Source: a bacterium (GTDB lineage Bacteria > Patescibacteriota > CPR2 > UBA1875 > JAJYID01). Taken from it: a DNA stretch of 52,121 nucleotides. Shown here piece after piece: positions 3,460 to 28,506 of this stretch. Each line of letters opens with the position of its first letter. The first letter of the stretch is position 1. The notes beneath the pieces were generated by a model. It was not told where the DNA came from, did no database searches, and worked only from the letters and a program-made list of their open reading frames with translations. The stretch lies in contig JAJYJC010000005.1 in the NCBI GenBank assembly GCA_021796415.1, forward strand, positions 1 through 52,121, given 5' to 3'. A program made the position numbers and the translations under genes.

Positions 3460-4277
3460 CAAACAATAAGGGTTCGTATAGAGGCAGCAAAAAGATTAAA
3501 GACGAAGCTAGGCGCCTAAACCTCATATCAGAAATAGCAAACGAAGAGGCAGAGCGAGTGTTGCTTAACATGAAGAACTCTGGTTTTAGCCCTCGGGTAA
3601 TTTGTGATTTCGGATGCGGAACAGGTGATGCGTTTAGCGTTCTGCAGAAAGTCTTTCCGAGATCTCGGATATTTGGAGTAGACCAGTCAGAGACAGCAGC
3701 TTCACTGGCAAAAGAAAATAATAAGGATGTACAGGTATTTAAAAAAGACATGAATCTAGATGGCGCTTTTGATGAAATAGGACAGCAAACAGGGCCGATA
3801 GACCTTGCTTTTTTCCGAAACGTTTTATTGCACATACCCAAACCATCAATGGCTTTAGAAAAAGCAAAAGAACAGGTTAAAAAGAATGGTTTCTTGTTTG
3901 CCCAGGAACCAGACTGGAGTAAAGCAGAGGGAAACTGGCAAGAATTCTCGGTTTTTGTTAATGCTATAACCAAGATGATGCAATCTGTCAAAATAAATCC
4001 TTATATTGGTCGGGATATGGAAGGGGTATTTAAAAATTTAGATCTAAAAGACGTTGAGGTCGATGTTTCTAGGCGAAAGGTAATACCCAAAGATACCACG
4101 TGGGAGATTCTCTATTATTTGCTTGAGGTGGCAGGTGAAGGCATAGATCCGTACCTGCAGGAGAGAGGTATTAAAAGTAGAAAAGAGATGAAACAAAGGA
4201 TGGAAGTTGTGAGAGGAGCTAAAGGCAACTATTACTATACACCGGCATGGTTTATAGCGACTGGCCGTGTTGTTTAA
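3456..4277 (+). CDS. Class I SAM-dependent methyltransferase
   Basis: VICDFGCGTGDAFSVLQKVFPRSRIFGVDQSE motif I. Confidence 0.85.
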   Translation: MTNNKGSYRGSKKIKDEARRLNLISEIANEEAERVLLNMKNSGFSPRVICDFGCGTGDAFSVLQKVFPRSRIFGVDQSETAASLAKENNKDVQVFKKDMNLDGAFDEIGQQTGPIDLAFFRNVLLHIPKPSMALEKAKEQVKKNGFLFAQEPDWSKAEGNWQEFSVFVNAITKMMQSVKINPYIGRDMEGVFKNLDLKDVEVDVSRRKVIPKDTTWEILYYLLEVAGEGIDPYLQERGIKSRKEMKQRMEVVRGAKGNYYYTPAWFIATGRVV

Positions 4278-7718: not shown

Positions 7719-8756
7719 ATGAATACCAAAACAGTCAACAAAAAATCTTTCAAGTTGCTTCCGGGTAAAGAAAAAATTAAAACTTTGCTGGAGTACGCCA
7801 CTTTAGCGCCTTCCACACACAACACGCAACCGTGGATTTTTAGCGTTGCCGAAAACTCCTGCAAAATCTATGTCAATCCCTCACTCTATTTGAGGGAGGC
7901 AGACAGGAAGGGCAGATACATAGCTATTAGCCTGGGATGCCTCATCGAAAATCTTGTTATAGCCGCAAAACATTATGGTTATTACCAGGATATTGAGTAT
8001 AATATCGCTCTGAAAAACATTAAACAATATAAGAAAGGCGACAAATTTCTAATCGCCGAGGTGTTTTTGGAGAATAATGGAGCCAAAGAAGAGAATAATG
8101 AACTATTTGACGCAATACCGAAGCGATTCAACGCAAGGGGCCCATTTGAAGAGAAAGCCCTGCCAAAACCGCTCAAAGACCAGCTTTGCGGCATAAAAAA
8201 AGAAATACCGGAAGTTGACATGACAATGGTTGCTGACAAAGAAAAGATACTCGAAATTGCCAGACTCACTGCAAAGGGGATGATGGCGGCCCATAAAAAC
8301 GTTAATTTTAGGAGAGAGCTTTCCGGTTGGGTCAGAAATGCTTTTTCCAGAAAGAGAGACGGCATGTCATGGAAATCTATGAGAATCCCAGCCCCCTTTG
8401 CCGGATTTATTTCTTACATGATTCGTTTTTTCAATATGGGACCGGTGTTAGGGAAGCTGAATTTCAAGAGCGTGGCTTCTGCTCAGGCTGTATGTGTTTT
8501 TGGGTCAGGTGAAAATATGTTTAGCTGGCTGCAGGTTGGGCGAGCCGCCGAAAAAGTTATGTTAAGCACATATGCAAAGGGCTTCAATACTTCTGTTTAT
8601 GTTGCGGCGATTGACATTGATTCTTTGAGAAAGAACCTAAAAAGTATCATTGATAGTGAGAGTGAGCCTCAATTTCTACTATGCCTAGGTTACATGGACC
8701 AAAAACATCCCAAAACGGCTCGCAAGGACATTAAGGAGGTTATTATAAATGAGTGA
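7719..8756 (+). CDS. Nitroreductase/Acg-like FMN-dependent family protein
   Basis: LLEYATLAPSTHNTQPWIFSV, GRYIAISLGCLIENLVIAAKHYGY, WLQVGRAAEKVMLSTYAKGF. Confidence 0.8.
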   Translation: MNTKTVNKKSFKLLPGKEKIKTLLEYATLAPSTHNTQPWIFSVAENSCKIYVNPSLYLREADRKGRYIAISLGCLIENLVIAAKHYGYYQDIEYNIALKNIKQYKKGDKFLIAEVFLENNGAKEENNELFDAIPKRFNARGPFEEKALPKPLKDQLCGIKKEIPEVDMTMVADKEKILEIARLTAKGMMAAHKNVNFRRELSGWVRNAFSRKRDGMSWKSMRIPAPFAGFISYMIRFFNMGPVLGKLNFKSVASAQAVCVFGSGENMFSWLQVGRAAEKVMLSTYAKGFNTSVYVAAIDIDSLRKNLKSIIDSESEPQFLLCLGYMDQKHPKTARKDIKEVIINE

Positions 8757-9837
8757 TATAAAAGACAGCTTGGTTGAGTTACAAAACTATGACCTCAAAA
8801 CCTATTCTCCGATTGTTTTTGACCTTGGAAAAGAAAGTGATATTCAGAGTATTGATGAATTAATAGAGAAAAAGAAGATAACCAAGGTGGTAGATTATTT
8901 GCATGAGCAAAAAAAAGAACTGCAGCTGATAAACGACCCGAAGCTCTTATACGAGGGGGTCGATGCAGTAAAAATAAAAAATGAAGAAGGGGTATGGATC
9001 TATTACCCGTGGCTTTCATCGCTGGTACACTGCCTGAAGGAGGGTGATTACAATAGATTGCGTTTGTCCAGAAATAGAGAACTGATTACAGAGGAGGAAG
9101 AAAAAGAGTTTGCCAGCCTTAAAATAGGCTTTGCCGGGCTGAACGTAGGAAACCCAATAGCGATTTGTACCGCCCTGGAAGGTGGTAGTTTGGCTCTCAT
9201 GAAGTTAGCCGACAACGATACTCTGGACTTCACGAATTTGAATAGGTTCAGAGCGACTGTTGCAGATCAAGGGATAAACAAGGCTATTTTGACAGCTCGC
9301 CAGGTATATGAAGTGAGCCCGTTTGTCAAAACAGAAGTTTTAGATAAGGGAATTAGCGCGGAAGGAATTGAAGATTTCCTATTAAGACCCAGGATAGATA
9401 TTCTCGTTGAAGAGATGGATAACTTGCCCCTAAAAATTAAAATTAGAGAGAAGGCCAGGGAGCATGGGATACCAGTTGTGATGATCACGGGAAATGGTGC
9501 TGGCGTGATTGTGGACGTGGAAAGATACGATAAAGACAAATCTTCAAGGGTATTAAACGGCTATTTGAAAGATGATGTTATCGAGAGGATTAAGAACCCC
9601 GTTAGCACATTGGATGAAAAAATTGCTCTTGCCAGGGATTTCATGGGGAAAGAGCATTTGTCACCGAGATTAAATAAATCATTTGGCTTGATTGGTCGAG
9701 AATTAGTTGGTATACCGCAAATTTCCGAGGCGTCATTTTTGAGAGGGGCGGTTGTGTGCAATATATTAAGAAATCTGTTGCGTAAGGATATACCATCCGG
9801 GAGATATAGTTTTAGCCTAAGCGATATAATAAAATAA
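8749..9837 (+). CDS. ThiF/MoeB/E1-like adenylating protein
   Basis: KIGFAGLNVGNPIAICTALEGGSLALMKLADNDTLDFTNLNRF...GINKAILTARQVYEVSP...DILVEEMDN; overlaps the previous ORF by 8 nt. Confidence 0.83.
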   Translation: MSDIKDSLVELQNYDLKTYSPIVFDLGKESDIQSIDELIEKKKITKVVDYLHEQKKELQLINDPKLLYEGVDAVKIKNEEGVWIYYPWLSSLVHCLKEGDYNRLRLSRNRELITEEEEKEFASLKIGFAGLNVGNPIAICTALEGGSLALMKLADNDTLDFTNLNRFRATVADQGINKAILTARQVYEVSPFVKTEVLDKGISAEGIEDFLLRPRIDILVEEMDNLPLKIKIREKAREHGIPVVMITGNGAGVIVDVERYDKDKSSRVLNGYLKDDVIERIKNPVSTLDEKIALARDFMGKEHLSPRLNKSFGLIGRELVGIPQISEASFLRGAVVCNILRNLLRKDIPSGRYSFSLSDIIK

Positions 9838-12948: not shown

Positions 12949-13023
12949 GGCCCGTTCGTCTAGTGGTTAGGACGCCAGGTTTTCATCCTGGTAACAGGGG
13001 TTCGATTCCCCTACGGGCTACCA
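12949..13023 (+). tRNA. tRNA-Glu (anticodon TTC), CCA encoded
   Basis: ggcccgt...acgggct acceptor, ccagg-ttttcat-cctgg anticodon arm, aggggttcgattcccct T-arm, then acca. Confidence 0.95.
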
Positions 13024-14530
13024 ATGAAGATTTCTTGCCATCAAAAGTGGCATTTATACTATAAACAAGCCCTAAACGGGCGGTTCCAAAACCTACATTC
13101 TTTTTATATGAAACTCCCTCAGGAAAGACCAACTTTTGGAACCGAGGTTTTATTTTGTCTGGCATATCAAACCACTGCCTGCCTAAATCATCAATAAAGT
13201 GCATTGCATAGTTCAAAGCCCCCTCAATATCAAGCTGGTCTATTTTAGATTCATTTAATGAAATCTGTTCGGCAACAATTTCGTTATCAACCTCCGCCTT
13301 CCTAGTAAAAAACTCCTCTTTTGTATAAGAGCCATCTTCTCTCATTTCATATAAACGTTTTCTCTTTTTCTCTAGAAGATTTATTGCTTTTTGTATTCTT
13401 GCAGTTTCCGTTTGGTAAGCTTGACCCTTCTCTTGCCAAAAATCTAAGGCAGTTTCTTTGAATAGTTCTAGAAATTCGTTTTTAGGTGTTATAGTTCGGA
13501 GGTGTTTAATAAAATCCGCCTCAATGTCTTTTTTCGGCAATGACTTCCCATACATTGAGCATTCTTTATTATAGCAATGATAGTTAGCATATTTCCCGCC
13601 ATTGCCCCTTGAATAACTGCCCGTTAAAGTGTGCCCACATTCTCCGCAAAGGATAGTTCTTCTTAGAGCAAAGTCGGGATTAAACCTATGTCTTTTGAGT
13701 TTCAATTTTCCGCCACTTTTAAAGTAGGTAATCTTACCCATCTCTTCTTCGCTAATCATCGGTTTGTGCAAACCTCGTCTTTCTTCCTGAGTCCAAGGAT
13801 TTACAATAATGCCTGTATAAAATTTCAGATGTTTGCTTAGCATTTTGTCTACAAACTGCATGGAGGTCTCTTTGCCTCTGATTCTGGCAAGACCCCACTC
13901 GTCAAGTTTGCCAGTTAATTCTTTTTGTGAATATATGCCCTTTGAAAATTCCTTTAATGCCTTTTGAATAATAGGGAAAGATTGCTCGTCTGGCGGGTCT
14001 GGTCGTGTTTTCTTCTCACCATGCTTTTTAGAGTGAAGACATCTATATCCAGTGGGAGCTTTCCATGGATAAATACCTCTGTTGATTTGAGTCATCATTC
14101 CGTCGGTACACTGCCTTTTTCTTATAGCGTTTTCGTATTCTGAAGCTCCTGCAATGATTGTTTCAAAGAATTTACCAGTAGGGGAACTGTCAATCGGTTC
14201 CGTGACAGAGTGGAGAGTCGTGCCGTAATCTATAAGTATTTTTCTGACCGCAAAATGGTCTTCGGTATTTCTAGCAAAGCGGTTTAATCTTAGGACAATG
14301 AAAGCTTCCACATTTCCCTTATTTTTACGGCAATATTCAAGGGCATCTAAGAAAACCTTGCGATTATTCAGGCTTAAATCCTTTGCACTTTCACCTTCTT
14401 CCCGAAAAACAGATACCACTTCGATACCTTTTTCTTGACAATATTTTTTGCATACTTCTTCTTGGAACTCTAAAGATGTGCCTTCAACCTGCTCACCGCT
14501 TGAGACTCTTGTATAAATTATTCCTTTCAA
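12983..14530 (-). CDS. Large serine recombinase (resolvase + recombinase + zinc ribbon); C-terminus reads antisense into tRNA-Glu
   Basis: IIYTRVSSGEQVEGTSLEFQ, VLRLNRFARN, CGECGHTLTGSYSRG zinc ribbon; TTG start at 14530 after aaaggagc. Confidence 0.92.
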   Translation of the reverse strand: MKGIIYTRVSSGEQVEGTSLEFQEEVCKKYCQEKGIEVVSVFREEGESAKDLSLNNRKVFLDALEYCRKNKGNVEAFIVLRLNRFARNTEDHFAVRKILIDYGTTLHSVTEPIDSSPTGKFFETIIAGASEYENAIRKRQCTDGMMTQINRGIYPWKAPTGYRCLHSKKHGEKKTRPDPPDEQSFPIIQKALKEFSKGIYSQKELTGKLDEWGLARIRGKETSMQFVDKMLSKHLKFYTGIIVNPWTQEERRGLHKPMISEEEMGKITYFKSGGKLKLKRHRFNPDFALRRTILCGECGHTLTGSYSRGNGGKYANYHCYNKECSMYGKSLPKKDIEADFIKHLRTITPKNEFLELFKETALDFWQEKGQAYQTETARIQKAINLLEKKRKRLYEMREDGSYTKEEFFTRKAEVDNEIVAEQISLNESKIDQLDIEGALNYAMHFIDDLGRQWFDMPDKIKPRFQKLVFPEGVSYKKNVGFGTARLGLVYSINATFDGKKSSLVARRGIEPLLPG

Positions 14531-14550: not shown

Positions 14551-14648
14551 TAAACCAAAGAGGGACAACCCTGCTGTACACAGTTCCTCGCGGATACTGA
14601 ACAGGATTGCCCCTCAAAGGCAAAATCCGCGAAATTGAAACTGTGTAC
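14551..14648 (-). ncRNA. Candidate structured leader RNA, copy B, upstream of serine recombinase
   Basis: P1 gtacacagtt (14639-14648)/aactgtgtac (14576-14585), P2 tcgcggat/atccgcga, apex ttgcct..aggggcaa, 3' agggttgtccct; TATAAT with extended -10 TG at 14655-14660. Confidence 0.65.
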
Positions 14649-14680
14649 AATCTAATTATACCATTCTTGTCAAACTTTTG

Positions 14681-16272: not shown

Positions 16273-17091
16273 TTAGGTCTTTTTTGACGATTTGGAGCGG
16301 TTTTTGACGATTAATCTTTCATAATCAATCTTTGGGAGATTCACTTCACTCTTCATCAGTAGCTTATCTGCCCCACAGACAGGGAAGAAATGAGGCTTTA
16401 ATTTTTTGTCAAACCCTGCCCTTCTAACAACCTCAGATAAATTATTGAGACCTTGTTGGTTGGGGTATGCATTATTTAAATCTTGTTTCGTCACAGTTTG
16501 ATTCAATTTATTATTAACCAAATAATTGAAAAGTAGGTCAGGAGCTAGCCCATCTCTAAGTGTTCTAAATAGGATATTTTGTTCCTTGGTTTGCATAAAT
16601 AATTTAGTCCCATCTTTATAAAGCTTGATGTGTACGGCTTGATGATTATCATTATTGTCACTTGAAAACTTTGGGGGTAATCTCTTAGCAAGAATCTGTC
16701 GTGTGAGCAATAACACGTCGGTATAATCCCAATGGGTGTAGCCAGTGCTATCTACCAGTTTCAAAACAATCGATGTTTTTACATTGTTATTTGCTGGCTC
16801 ATAGTCTCTTATACCAGTACCAATACAGTCGCCACTATATTTCTCAAATGTCATCAATTCAATTATTTGATGAGAGTGTAGCACTCTAATTATTCGCTCG
16901 ATTTCTTGCTGAGGTATTTTGATTTCTGATGCAGTTGGGATGTCAACAAATTCATTTTGAGTTAGTTCATAGGTATCTAGTATGAAACAAACTACTTTTT
17001 GCAAATTGTTAAGTCTGTTTATTGCTTGGATAGAACCAAGCCATTTATTAAGCTCTTTGGTTCTCCTTTGTATGTAACTTTCATTTTTCAT
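16273..17091 (-). CDS. Hypothetical protein with possible winged-helix region; candidate replication initiator/regulator
   Basis: 272 aa; YELTQNEFVDIPTASEIKIPQQEIERIIRVLHSHQIIEL resembles wHTH; sits next to iteron-like repeats. Confidence 0.5.
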   Translation of the reverse strand: MKNESYIQRRTKELNKWLGSIQAINRLNNLQKVVCFILDTYELTQNEFVDIPTASEIKIPQQEIERIIRVLHSHQIIELMTFEKYSGDCIGTGIRDYEPANNNVKTSIVLKLVDSTGYTHWDYTDVLLLTRQILAKRLPPKFSSDNNDNHQAVHIKLYKDGTKLFMQTKEQNILFRTLRDGLAPDLLFNYLVNNKLNQTVTKQDLNNAYPNQQGLNNLSEVVRRAGFDKKLKPHFFPVCGADKLLMKSEVNLPKIDYERLIVKNRSKSSKKT

Positions 17092-17141
17092 AATAATTTT
17101 AATTGTGTGTTGTGTTATGACAACTTAAATACAAAAATACT

Positions 17142-17291
17142 ACCTATTAACACTTTTTAATTGCCCATATTTATTATATTACATTCTCAACCACCTATAA
17201 ACAGATAAAAAAACACCTGTAAACTAGGAAAAATCACACCTATAAACGCATAAAAGTACTGTCTAAACAGAAAATAATCATACCTATTAAC
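17142..17291. repeat. Iteron-like array, core ACCTATAAAC
   Basis: Core copies end at 17151, 17202, 17224, 17247, 17268, 17291; the last five are spaced 21-23 bp. Confidence 0.75.
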
Positions 17292-17378
17292 TAAAAATAA
17301 TTAAAAGCTTAGAATTTAACCTCGTGTGTTGTATAGGGATTATCTTTGTTTTGTCTCGCCATTCCCCCAACGAAGTAA

Positions 17379-17406
17379 TTGCTTTTTATAAGGAAAAAAG
17401 TATAAT
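17379..17406 (+). promoter_or_regulatory. Promoter TTGCTT-16-TATAAT for leader RNA copy A
   Basis: ttgctttttataaggaaaaaagtataat. Confidence 0.6.
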
Positions 17407-17412
17407 ATAAGC

Positions 17413-17540
17413 GTCTAGACTAGCATAGATTGCAAATTCATTCTTCCGAGAGTGATTGCGCCTTATTTTAGGGCAATCACTCGATAAACAGGGCGCAATC
17501 CCTGCTGGTCTAGACACCTAGGGTGGTTGTCCTTTTTGTT
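17413..17540 (+). ncRNA. Candidate structured leader RNA, copy A, upstream of the membrane-protein operon
   Basis: P1 gtctagactagca (17413-17425)/tgctggtctagac (17503-17515), gattgc/gcaatc (17428/17495), gagtgattgc/gcaatcactc (17450/17473), then agggtggttgtccttttt. Confidence 0.65.
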
Positions 17541-17578
17541 TCAAAATGTGTTACATAGATAATCAAGAAAGAGGAAAA

Positions 17579-17806
17579 ATGAATAAGAAAACTATATTAT
17601 TAACGCTAATCATTCTTTTTTTCGGAATAGGTTTGTTCTATTGGTTTCAGATAAGACCAGGCAACATAAAACAACGATGCGATGCACAAGCAAATCAAGG
17701 TCTAAAAGATAACAATTTTGGTGTTAATCCAGGTATTTCCGACCCAGACAATGCTCGTGAATACAATGATTTCTTTCAAAAATGTCTACATGAAAAGGGA
17801 TTATAA
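17579..17806 (+). CDS. Small single-TM protein
   Basis: MNKKTILLTLIILFFGIGLFYWFQI; RBS gaggaaaa upstream; listed ORF starts earlier at 17546. Confidence 0.6.
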   Translation: MNKKTILLTLIILFFGIGLFYWFQIRPGNIKQRCDAQANQGLKDNNFGVNPGISDPDNAREYNDFFQKCLHEKGL

Positions 17807-20214: not shown

Positions 20215-20278
20215 ATGCCTGCATATAGGTATTTTTTTTATGCCCAAAATCTTGACAGCGTAGAGGATTTGAACTTTC
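20215..20278. repeat. Left ~64-bp repeat flanking AbiE module (contains hairpin + T-run)
   Basis: atgcctgcatataggtattttttttatgcccaaaatcttgacagcgtagaggatttgaactttc; matches 21955-22017. Confidence 0.75.
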
Positions 20279-20365: not shown

Positions 20366-21136
20366 ATGGACATGAAAAAGACAATTTTATCGGAAAAAGA
20401 GCTCCAGCTTCTGGAAAGCCTTATTTCAAGCTATGGCTACATAGCTGATTTTAATCAGATCGAAGCCAGGCTTAAGATTAGTCATCAGGCTGTCAGGAAC
20501 CTAGTCGCCAAGCTGGTAAGCAACGGCTGGCTGGTCAGGATCAAGAAAGGCCATTTTGCCATTGCAAATCTAGAATCCCATAGCTTTTCAAATATTTCGC
20601 CTCTGGCGATAGCTCAGGTGCTGATTCCCGGTTCTTATGTTTCATTCGAATATGCCCTGAATTACCACGGTCATTTTGACCAGTTGTCTGCAAAGGTCAC
20701 TTCGGTAACCACTTCGAAAAAAAAGTCTTTTCAATTTCAAGATACAGAATATCTCTTTGTCAAAGCCAAGCCAGAAATGATGGCAGGTTTTAAAGAGATA
20801 ACGATTGAAGGACAGCCCGCCAATGTTGCGACCTTCGAAAAGGCTCTCCTTGATATTCTTCACTTCCGAAAAGACAGCTATACGATTGATCTATTAGTTG
20901 AAAAACTAAAAGAAGCTAGAAACGAGATCGATACAGAAGCTTTGATTCAATTATCAATGGTCTATCCCGTAACATTTAGGAGACGTCTCGGATTCTTGAT
21001 GGATCTAGCCGAGCTGAACAGCGACTTTCTGCAAATGGATCTAAAAGGGACCCCTGGTTTTGCCAAGCTGACTAAAAAATCAAATATCTTTAATCCTAAG
21101 TGGAGACTCTACTATGAAGATCGATTTGCTAAGTAG
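20366..21136 (+). CDS. AbiEi-like antitoxin/regulator (type IV TA)
   Basis: N-terminal wHTH, SYVSFEYALNYHG, ATFEKALLDILHFR; overlaps the AbiEii ORF. Confidence 0.85.
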   Translation: MDMKKTILSEKELQLLESLISSYGYIADFNQIEARLKISHQAVRNLVAKLVSNGWLVRIKKGHFAIANLESHSFSNISPLAIAQVLIPGSYVSFEYALNYHGHFDQLSAKVTSVTTSKKKSFQFQDTEYLFVKAKPEMMAGFKEITIEGQPANVATFEKALLDILHFRKDSYTIDLLVEKLKEARNEIDTEALIQLSMVYPVTFRRRLGFLMDLAELNSDFLQMDLKGTPGFAKLTKKSNIFNPKWRLYYEDRFAK

Positions 21137-21869
21137 AGCTCAGCTCTCCATTATCAACAAAAACAACTTCCGCTATCCTCTGCAAATCGCGGAGAAGGAT
21201 TATTTTCTTGCCATCGTTTTACAGATTATCTATAGCTCAAAATTAAAGGATTCGCTGGTCTTCAAAGGCGGCACGGCCATCCATCATCTATATCTCGACC
21301 AGTTGCGATTTTCTGAAGACCTTGATTTTCAGACAACCGGCAAGATTACAGAAGATAATTTGCGAGAAGTATTCCAGCCATATGATTTTCTGGAAATAAT
21401 CAAGAGCTACCAGTCTAATTTCACGCTAAAGATTCAGAGGCTGAAATTCACCGGTCCTTTGGGACAAGCAAACTCCATCAAGCTCGACGTTGATTTGACT
21501 CAAGAGCTAATCCTGCCGGCTGAAAACGCAGAATACAGAAATGTTTATGGCGTGCCGGTTTCGGTCAGAGCCATGGCGATCAAGGAAATCTGCGCTGAGA
21601 AAATTCGGGCTGTAAATGAAAGAGCCAGATATCGAGATTTCTATGACCTGGCCATGGTGATGAAAACTAATAGATTCGAACCTAACGATGTTTTGGCAAT
21701 TCTCAAAAAGAAAGAACTCAGAAAACCGCTTAGCAAGGATTCTGTACTAGAAAATCTGGAGATTGCCGAGGAAGCAAAAAAATCTGGAGCTGAGAGCCTG
21801 TATTACAGCAAAGAAATGAGCGAATCAGAGTTGAAGACAAGTTTGAATAGCATTCTATCCTTGATTTAA
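21114..21869 (+). CDS. AbiEii-like nucleotidyltransferase toxin
   Basis: LVFKGGTAIHHLYLDQLRFSEDLDFQT, KEICAEKIRAVNERARYRDFYDLAM. Confidence 0.9.
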   Translation: MKIDLLSRAQLSIINKNNFRYPLQIAEKDYFLAIVLQIIYSSKLKDSLVFKGGTAIHHLYLDQLRFSEDLDFQTTGKITEDNLREVFQPYDFLEIIKSYQSNFTLKIQRLKFTGPLGQANSIKLDVDLTQELILPAENAEYRNVYGVPVSVRAMAIKEICAEKIRAVNERARYRDFYDLAMVMKTNRFEPNDVLAILKKKELRKPLSKDSVLENLEIAEEAKKSGAESLYYSKEMSESELKTSLNSILSLI

Positions 21870-21953
21870 ATGCTTTACTGCTTTTTCAAGCTCAGCTAAG
21901 ACGCTATTGTTCGAATAGCTTACGATAGCGTCTACCAACAATTTGATTGACAT
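21855..21953 (-). CDS. 32-aa mini-ORF MSIKLLVDAIVSYSNNSVLAELEKAVKHLNQG
   Basis: Paralogous to the mini-ORF at 28414-28506; below the ORF-track length cutoff. Confidence 0.45.
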   Translation of the reverse strand: MSIKLLVDAIVSYSNNSVLAELEKAVKHLNQG

Positions 21954-21954
21954 T

Positions 21955-22017
21955 ATGCCTTAAATGAGGCATTTTTTTATGCCAAAAAATTAGACAGCAT
22001 AGGGGATTTGAACTTTC
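21955..22017. repeat. Right ~63-bp repeat flanking AbiE module; includes terminator atgccttaaatgaggcattttttt
   Basis: Matches 20215-20278; perfect hairpin plus T7. Confidence 0.78.
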
Positions 22018-28413: not shown

Positions 28414-28506
28414 TTAAGCAGGGATTTCTTTGAAGGCTTTCTCAAGCTGAATTAAGGCATCATTGTTCGAATAACTTACGATAGCGTCTACCAGAAAAGG
28501 TCTCAT
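28414..28506 (-). CDS. 30-aa mini-ORF MRPFLVDAIVSYSNNDALIQLEKAFKEIPA
   Basis: Shares LVDAIVSYSNN..L..LEKA.K with the mini-ORF at 21855-21953. Confidence 0.45.
   Translation of the reverse strand: MRPFLVDAIVSYSNNDALIQLEKAFKEIPA

Follow-up and report, generated by a model that had tools for sequence, protein, structure and literature searches.

Two leader RNAs in the window (the whole stretch of 52,121 nucleotides that was analysed), copy A upstream of membrane-protein genes and copy B directly upstream of a large serine recombinase gene, belong to one leader-RNA family that is absent from Rfam. It is likely that both are cis-acting transcription attenuators of two operons in one integrative element, that is, of the recombinase operon and of a divergent membrane-protein operon. 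Comparison of sequences establishes the two alternative helices, their covariation, a fixed distance to the promoter and the link to recombinase genes. The first helix, P1, is the base of a long hairpin. The second one, T, is a candidate terminator formed by a segment in the apical part of this hairpin (T5) and a segment following it (T3). The features of the two copies are listed below.

17401..17406, plus strand: -10 box TATAAT of leader A, 6 nt ahead of P1
17413-17537, plus strand: leader A, upstream of the membrane-protein genes
17413..17425, plus strand: 5' arm of P1, with the predicted transcript start at 17413
17428..17433 and 17495-17500, plus strand: arms gattgc/gcaatc of P2 in the predicted fold
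17450..17459 and 17473-17482, plus strand: arms of P3 in the predicted fold
17470..17482, plus strand: T5 (AGGGCAAUCACUC), overlapping the 3' arm of P3 and serving also as the 5' arm of the alternative terminator
17503..17515, plus strand: 3' arm of P1, forming 13 pairs with 17413-17425
17521..17537, plus strand: T3 (17521-17533) and U-run, 3' arm of the alternative terminator
17579..17806, plus strand: first gene under leader A, encoding a small membrane protein; zinc-ribbon and membrane-protein ORFs continue to 19714
14655..14660, minus strand: -10 box TATAAT of leader B, preceded by TGG (extended -10)
14650-14557, minus strand: leader B, directly 5' of the large serine recombinase
14637..14650 and 14575-14587, minus strand: 5' and 3' arms of P1
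14600..14615, minus strand: T5 (GAGGGGCAAUCCUGUU), within the hairpin loop
14557..14575, minus strand: T3 and U-run, 3' arm of the terminator
12983..14530, minus strand: large serine recombinase of 515 aa under leader B, with the domains Resolvase (PF00239) and Zn_ribbon_recom (PF13408)

The stems and the TATAAT box ascribed to copy A in an earlier note on this DNA are all present. The RNA fold of 17413-17545 has the energy of -52.4 kcal/mol, compared with -30.4 +/- 3.3 in shuffles (z = -6.6, with none of 200 shuffles as stable). The most informative pairing of leader A, absent from that note, is the one between T5 and T3. Indeed, 17521-17533 (GGGUGGUUGUCCU) is complementary to T5 at 13 of 13 positions, G.U pairs included, and is followed by UUUUU, and thus the 3' part of the leader is an arm of an alternative terminator hairpin. 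Folding from T5 onward yields this hairpin at -26.6 kcal/mol (z = -3.2). A conformational switch had been suggested between the two gattgc and the two gcaatc segments. The leader is indeed capable of switching, but the alternatives are the rod P1-P3 and the terminator formed by T3 with the 3' arm of P3. The start codon at 17579 (GAGGAAAAATG), also favoured earlier, is a better candidate than the in-frame ATG at 17546.

The second copy that the earlier note had mentioned is leader B. The two copies have a common architecture and no long sequence stretch in common. The order of elements in B is the same as in A: TATAAT, a few nucleotides, P1, T5 in the loop, the 3' arm of P1, T3, the U-run and the ORF. 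The segments T5 and T3 of leader B form a 16-bp terminator (-34.2 kcal/mol, z -6.5).

The same anatomy is found throughout the family: a -10 box, about 6 nt, the long hairpin P1 from about +1 with T5 in its apical part, T3 right after P1, a U-run and an ORF. The descriptor used in the scans consisted of P1, T5 in its loop, T3 after P1 and a U-run, with P1 crossing T, and the strict cut-off was a score of at least 24. This score was reached in 15 of 84 recombinase upstream regions from related genomes and on none of the 84 reverse strands, whereas none of 420 shuffles scored at least 22. Leaders above the cut-off were also found directly upstream of the recombinase in 23 of 81 further loci (80 from GTDB genomes and one from a viral contig; L137 duplicates the G001 contig, and L145 is a doubtful case). 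In four more loci (L125, L130, L165, L176) the leader is followed by a small gene and then by the recombinase. The latter gene in L165 has a group I intron match directly at its 3' side (8606-8880, minus strand). The recombinase loci in genome contigs were found with a five-sequence alignment; a single-sequence query gave none, and the alignment A7 was too diverse to be used as a search query. Descriptor matches in the loci L115 (12423), L117 (8581), L147, L195 and similar ones were rejected as unrelated repeats or chance matches.

The leaders span the Falkow-, Nomura-, Nealson-, Portnoy-, Sung-, WWE3, Gracili- and other Patescibacteria lineages. The genus mate G001 has both copies, and its A copy is 83% identical to that of the window. 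Rfam searches with leaders A and B and with relatives found no matching family (the earlier note had not recognised a known class in A either), and the leaders of the window, L157 and L130 had only sub-threshold chance matches in Rfam 15. No match was found by BLAST of leader A against plasmids and phages. In a thin sample of 12 phage serine integrases and 13 recombinases from outside Patescibacteria, the leader was found in none but two weak cases. One weak match is in a record labelled Mucilaginibacter (L179), which is perhaps misbinned, and a weaker one in Scalindua (L186) is 167 nt from the recombinase. On the recombinase tree the presence of the leader clusters weakly (15-19 changes, compared with the shuffled mean of 22.6), and thus many related recombinases have no leader.

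A covariance model of 22 leaders, named R2, with P1 as the sole structure and no T pairs, was run over 380 genomes blind to genes. It matched 27 genomes, several of which had also supplied training leaders, so that the test, although gene-blind, retains some dependence on the training set. In 25 of these 27 matches a serine recombinase ORF (recombinase profile E at most 6e-69) lies directly downstream, at most 44 nt away, or has its first possible start just overlapped. Thus the candidate regulated ORF immediately follows the leader, as in attenuators. Of the two remaining matches, one is 473 nt from a recombinase, and the other is followed by a type III-like DNA methyltransferase.

Among the 22 leaders used for training, 94% of cells in P1 and T are paired, compared with 35-50% in slid versions, and the double changes number 42, while shuffles have 10 (0 of 500 shuffles as high). 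In 22 R2 matches, nearly all from outside the training set, T is paired in 100% of cells and P1 and T together in 99.4%, with 53 double changes where 10.8 are expected. The shuffle control ignores relatedness, whereas the slid control keeps it. RNAalifold chooses the T helix unprompted, and the T5 and T3 segments of the same leader pair with the score of 16.1, compared with 9.2 when swapped between leaders. Covarying homologs, on which the earlier proposal of a structured leader depended, therefore exist, and both P1 and T covary. The cells of the T helix contain 37 G.U and 3 A.C (19 of the G.U from one column), which suggests that selection acts on the leader-strand RNA.

Among 51 members, exactly 6 nt separate the end of the -10 box from P1 in 28, and a box within the allowed spacing is present in 41, the shuffled mean being 10.6 and the maximum 18. 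As this distance is fixed, P1 probably begins at about +1, which is consistent with the transcript start near 17412 assumed earlier. Thus the leader is directly preceded by a predicted promoter, as expected for an attenuator.

In most members T3 starts 0-5 nt past the end of P1, and T5 is located apically in the hairpin of P1. The T5:T3 pairing crosses P1, so that the rod and the terminator hairpin are mutually exclusive. A full pseudoknot is, by our own estimate, sterically impossible in most members, where P1 and P2 together have about 20 pairs. In the main subtype, the motif GCCAA after T5 pairs with the 3' arm of P1 in 90% of cells, forming the inner helix of the T fold, and thus the T fold displaces the 5' arm of P1. 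Two exclusive conserved folds, one of which is a hairpin followed by a U-run, are characteristic of attenuators with intrinsic terminators. The U-runs are short in some leaders (3-5 U), and the A copy of G024 has a local hairpin before the U-run that could terminate transcription without T5.

The computed energies favour the rod, the presumable default fold, in 43 of 55 leaders and T in 12, with the median difference of 3.7 kcal/mol; in 25 of the 55 the two folds differ by at most 5 kcal/mol. In copies preceding non-recombinase genes the rod is mostly more stable by 13-21 kcal/mol (by 5.7 in G024), and thus termination there would need an active trigger.

The regulatory mechanism may be as follows. 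Transcription would start with the first base of P1 or immediately beside it, and the nascent RNA would fold into the P1-P2-P3 rod holding T5 in its apical part. The segment T3, emerging right after P1, could pair with T5 and form an intrinsic terminator with the U-run. Since this pairing crosses P1, the terminator would form only if P1 opens. In the main subtype, GCCAA after T5 would compete with the 5' arm of P1 for its 3' arm. The rod would correspond to read-through, and T, which presumably acts as a terminator in vivo, to termination before the gene. We infer that the switch is thrown by some signal acting on P1, be it a protein, an RNA or the state of the element.

The family resembles known attenuators with intrinsic terminators (leaders of the trp/pyr type, transcriptional riboswitches) in having a promoter-proximal leader, antiterminator-like and terminator folds, a U-run and a downstream ORF. 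However, unlike in trp/pyr-type leaders, no leader peptide was seen, and no ligand or protein is known for the family. Besides, P1 starts at the predicted transcript start and contains the terminator 5' arm in its apical part, so that the two folds cross, unlike those of the trp/pyr type.

Another possibility, which we consider unlikely, is that the terminated leader is itself the product, a small RNA acting in trans on other transcripts. The T fold with its U-run would yield a discrete RNA of about 70-140 nt, and the LOOT RNA considered below, an analogue of the leaders, has a piece of its hairpin repeated before the start codon in some loci. However, almost all matches of the gene-blind model (25 of 27) precede one type of gene, as expected for action in cis. 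There is no excess of leader repeats downstream (6.8 nt for own regions, 6.6 nt for swapped ones), and the sequences of P1 and T vary widely among members. Thus, of the cis- or trans-acting RNA of an integrative element proposed in the earlier note, the cis-regulatory, switch-capable leader is retained, and the trans role finds no support.

It is quite unlikely that the P1-P3 rod is the aptamer of a riboswitch binding a metabolite or an ion. The main subtype does contain conserved stretches outside P1 and T (UUUUUAUU, GCAAGU), but they are missing in the subtypes winA, winB, L104, L106 and L107, and the target genes belong to mobile elements, not to metabolism.

An attenuator set by an RNA transcribed from the opposite strand is very unlikely. 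In plasmids pIP501 and pT181, antisense-controlled attenuators of rep have alternative leader folds. The logic of alternative folds controlling a gene of a mobile element is similar here, and iteron-like repeats adjoin leader A, as in replicons. On the other hand, the controlled genes are recombinases and cargo, and no signal of antisense promoters was observed over the leaders: antisense -10 boxes occur at the shuffled level (39 of 51 compared with 38.3), and so do extended ones (2 compared with 4.0).

Finally, the suggestion that the inverted repeats act as DNA (a recombination site, a pair of operators or a cruciform) is highly improbable, since, although a recombinase gene is close by and the P1 arms are inverted repeats, the distance to the -10 box is fixed, T keeps G.U far more than A.C, A-type copies lie kilobases from the recombinase before other genes, and the spacing between the P1 arms, tens of bases, differs from that in a compact crossover site.

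An arrangement similar to that of the candidate cis-acting attenuators was found in LOOT RNA (RF03000), which is typed in Rfam as an sRNA gene and is mentioned only in passing in the open-access literature searched. LOOT occurs in Patescibacteria, with matches in 83 of the 380 genomes. For 8 of the 27 R2 leaders, there is a LOOT RNA at the distance of 2.9-7.1 kb, always divergent, that is, in the place of copy A. In L127 the LOOT RNA (3536-3665, minus strand) is in the divergent position directly upstream of a type III methyltransferase. In all 21 examined LOOT loci, which include L127 and L243-L262, the apical segment of the long hairpin can pair with the segment right after the Rfam body, mostly with a U-rich stretch next to it. 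The mean score of this pairing is 13.2 for own segments, 8.5 for swapped and 7.9 for shuffled ones. In five of the 21 loci (L243, L244, L247, L249, L127), 9-17 nt of the 5' arm of the long hairpin are repeated just before the next start codon. We regard LOOT as a probable leader, not an sRNA gene, and propose attenuation as its role as well.

LOOT thus resembles the leader family in its occurrence in mobile elements of Patescibacteria and in the arrangement of T5, T3 and the U-run. However, it differs from leaders A and B in having several tandem hairpins, GAAA-type loops and the conserved pattern CCUAA..AUGGC, and is a different sequence family. The LOOT covariance model (gathering score 46.4 bits) does not match A or B in the window and has no matches in 17300-17700 at E at most 5. 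Tentatively, the leader family and LOOT might be branches of a single regulatory design specific to Patescibacteria: the 5' arm of the terminator would be caged by a hairpin of the same leader, and a pair of such leaders would coordinate the recombinase and cargo operons on an element-specific signal, for example, excision, transfer or entry into a new host.

Patescibacteria are episymbiotic and mostly uncultured, and the source bacterium is ultra-small. The open-access literature searched contains no account of how their integrative elements time their movement. A conserved RNA leader directly before the recombinase would be a concrete control point for this movement, and if LOOT shares the leader logic, an orphan Rfam family can be assigned a genomic setting and a plausible mode of action.

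A-type copies, those preceding other genes, were found in the window, G001, G024, G076, G210, L121 and L157. Most of them diverge from the recombinase leader, but the two leaders of G001 have the same direction. The genes under A-type copies encode membrane proteins or type III methyltransferases (L157, L223). The P1 sequence GUCUARACYAGYA is common to the A copies of the window, G001 and, in nearly the same form, G024. Among the genes shared by the elements there is no obvious candidate for a common regulator. A shared trans-acting protein was considered and rejected: apart from the recombinase, the families found most often are small proteins, and these are present also without the leader.

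Several other features of the element were observed. The recombinase ORF, whose stop is at 12983, extends into the 3' part of a tRNA-Glu (12949-13023), and no direct repeat of the tRNA-Glu end that could form a simple element boundary was found within the window. Iteron-like repeats ACCTRTAAAC / ACCTATTAAC, seen by eye at 17130-17300 between the ORF 16273-17091 (minus strand) and leader A, suggest a replication origin of the element. Direct repeats of 46 nt (87%) at 20233-20278 and 21972-22017 flank an AbiEi/AbiEii toxin-antitoxin pair (20366-21869), which is perhaps a mobile cassette. Direct repeats of 58 nt (84%) with a hairpin-like core are 6.6 kb apart (21880-21937 and 28436-28493). One more hairpin repeat, with the core GTCAACACCTGGTGTCGACACCAGGTGTTGAC, is present in two copies (2124-2175 and 2856-2907) flanking the ORF 2198-2866.
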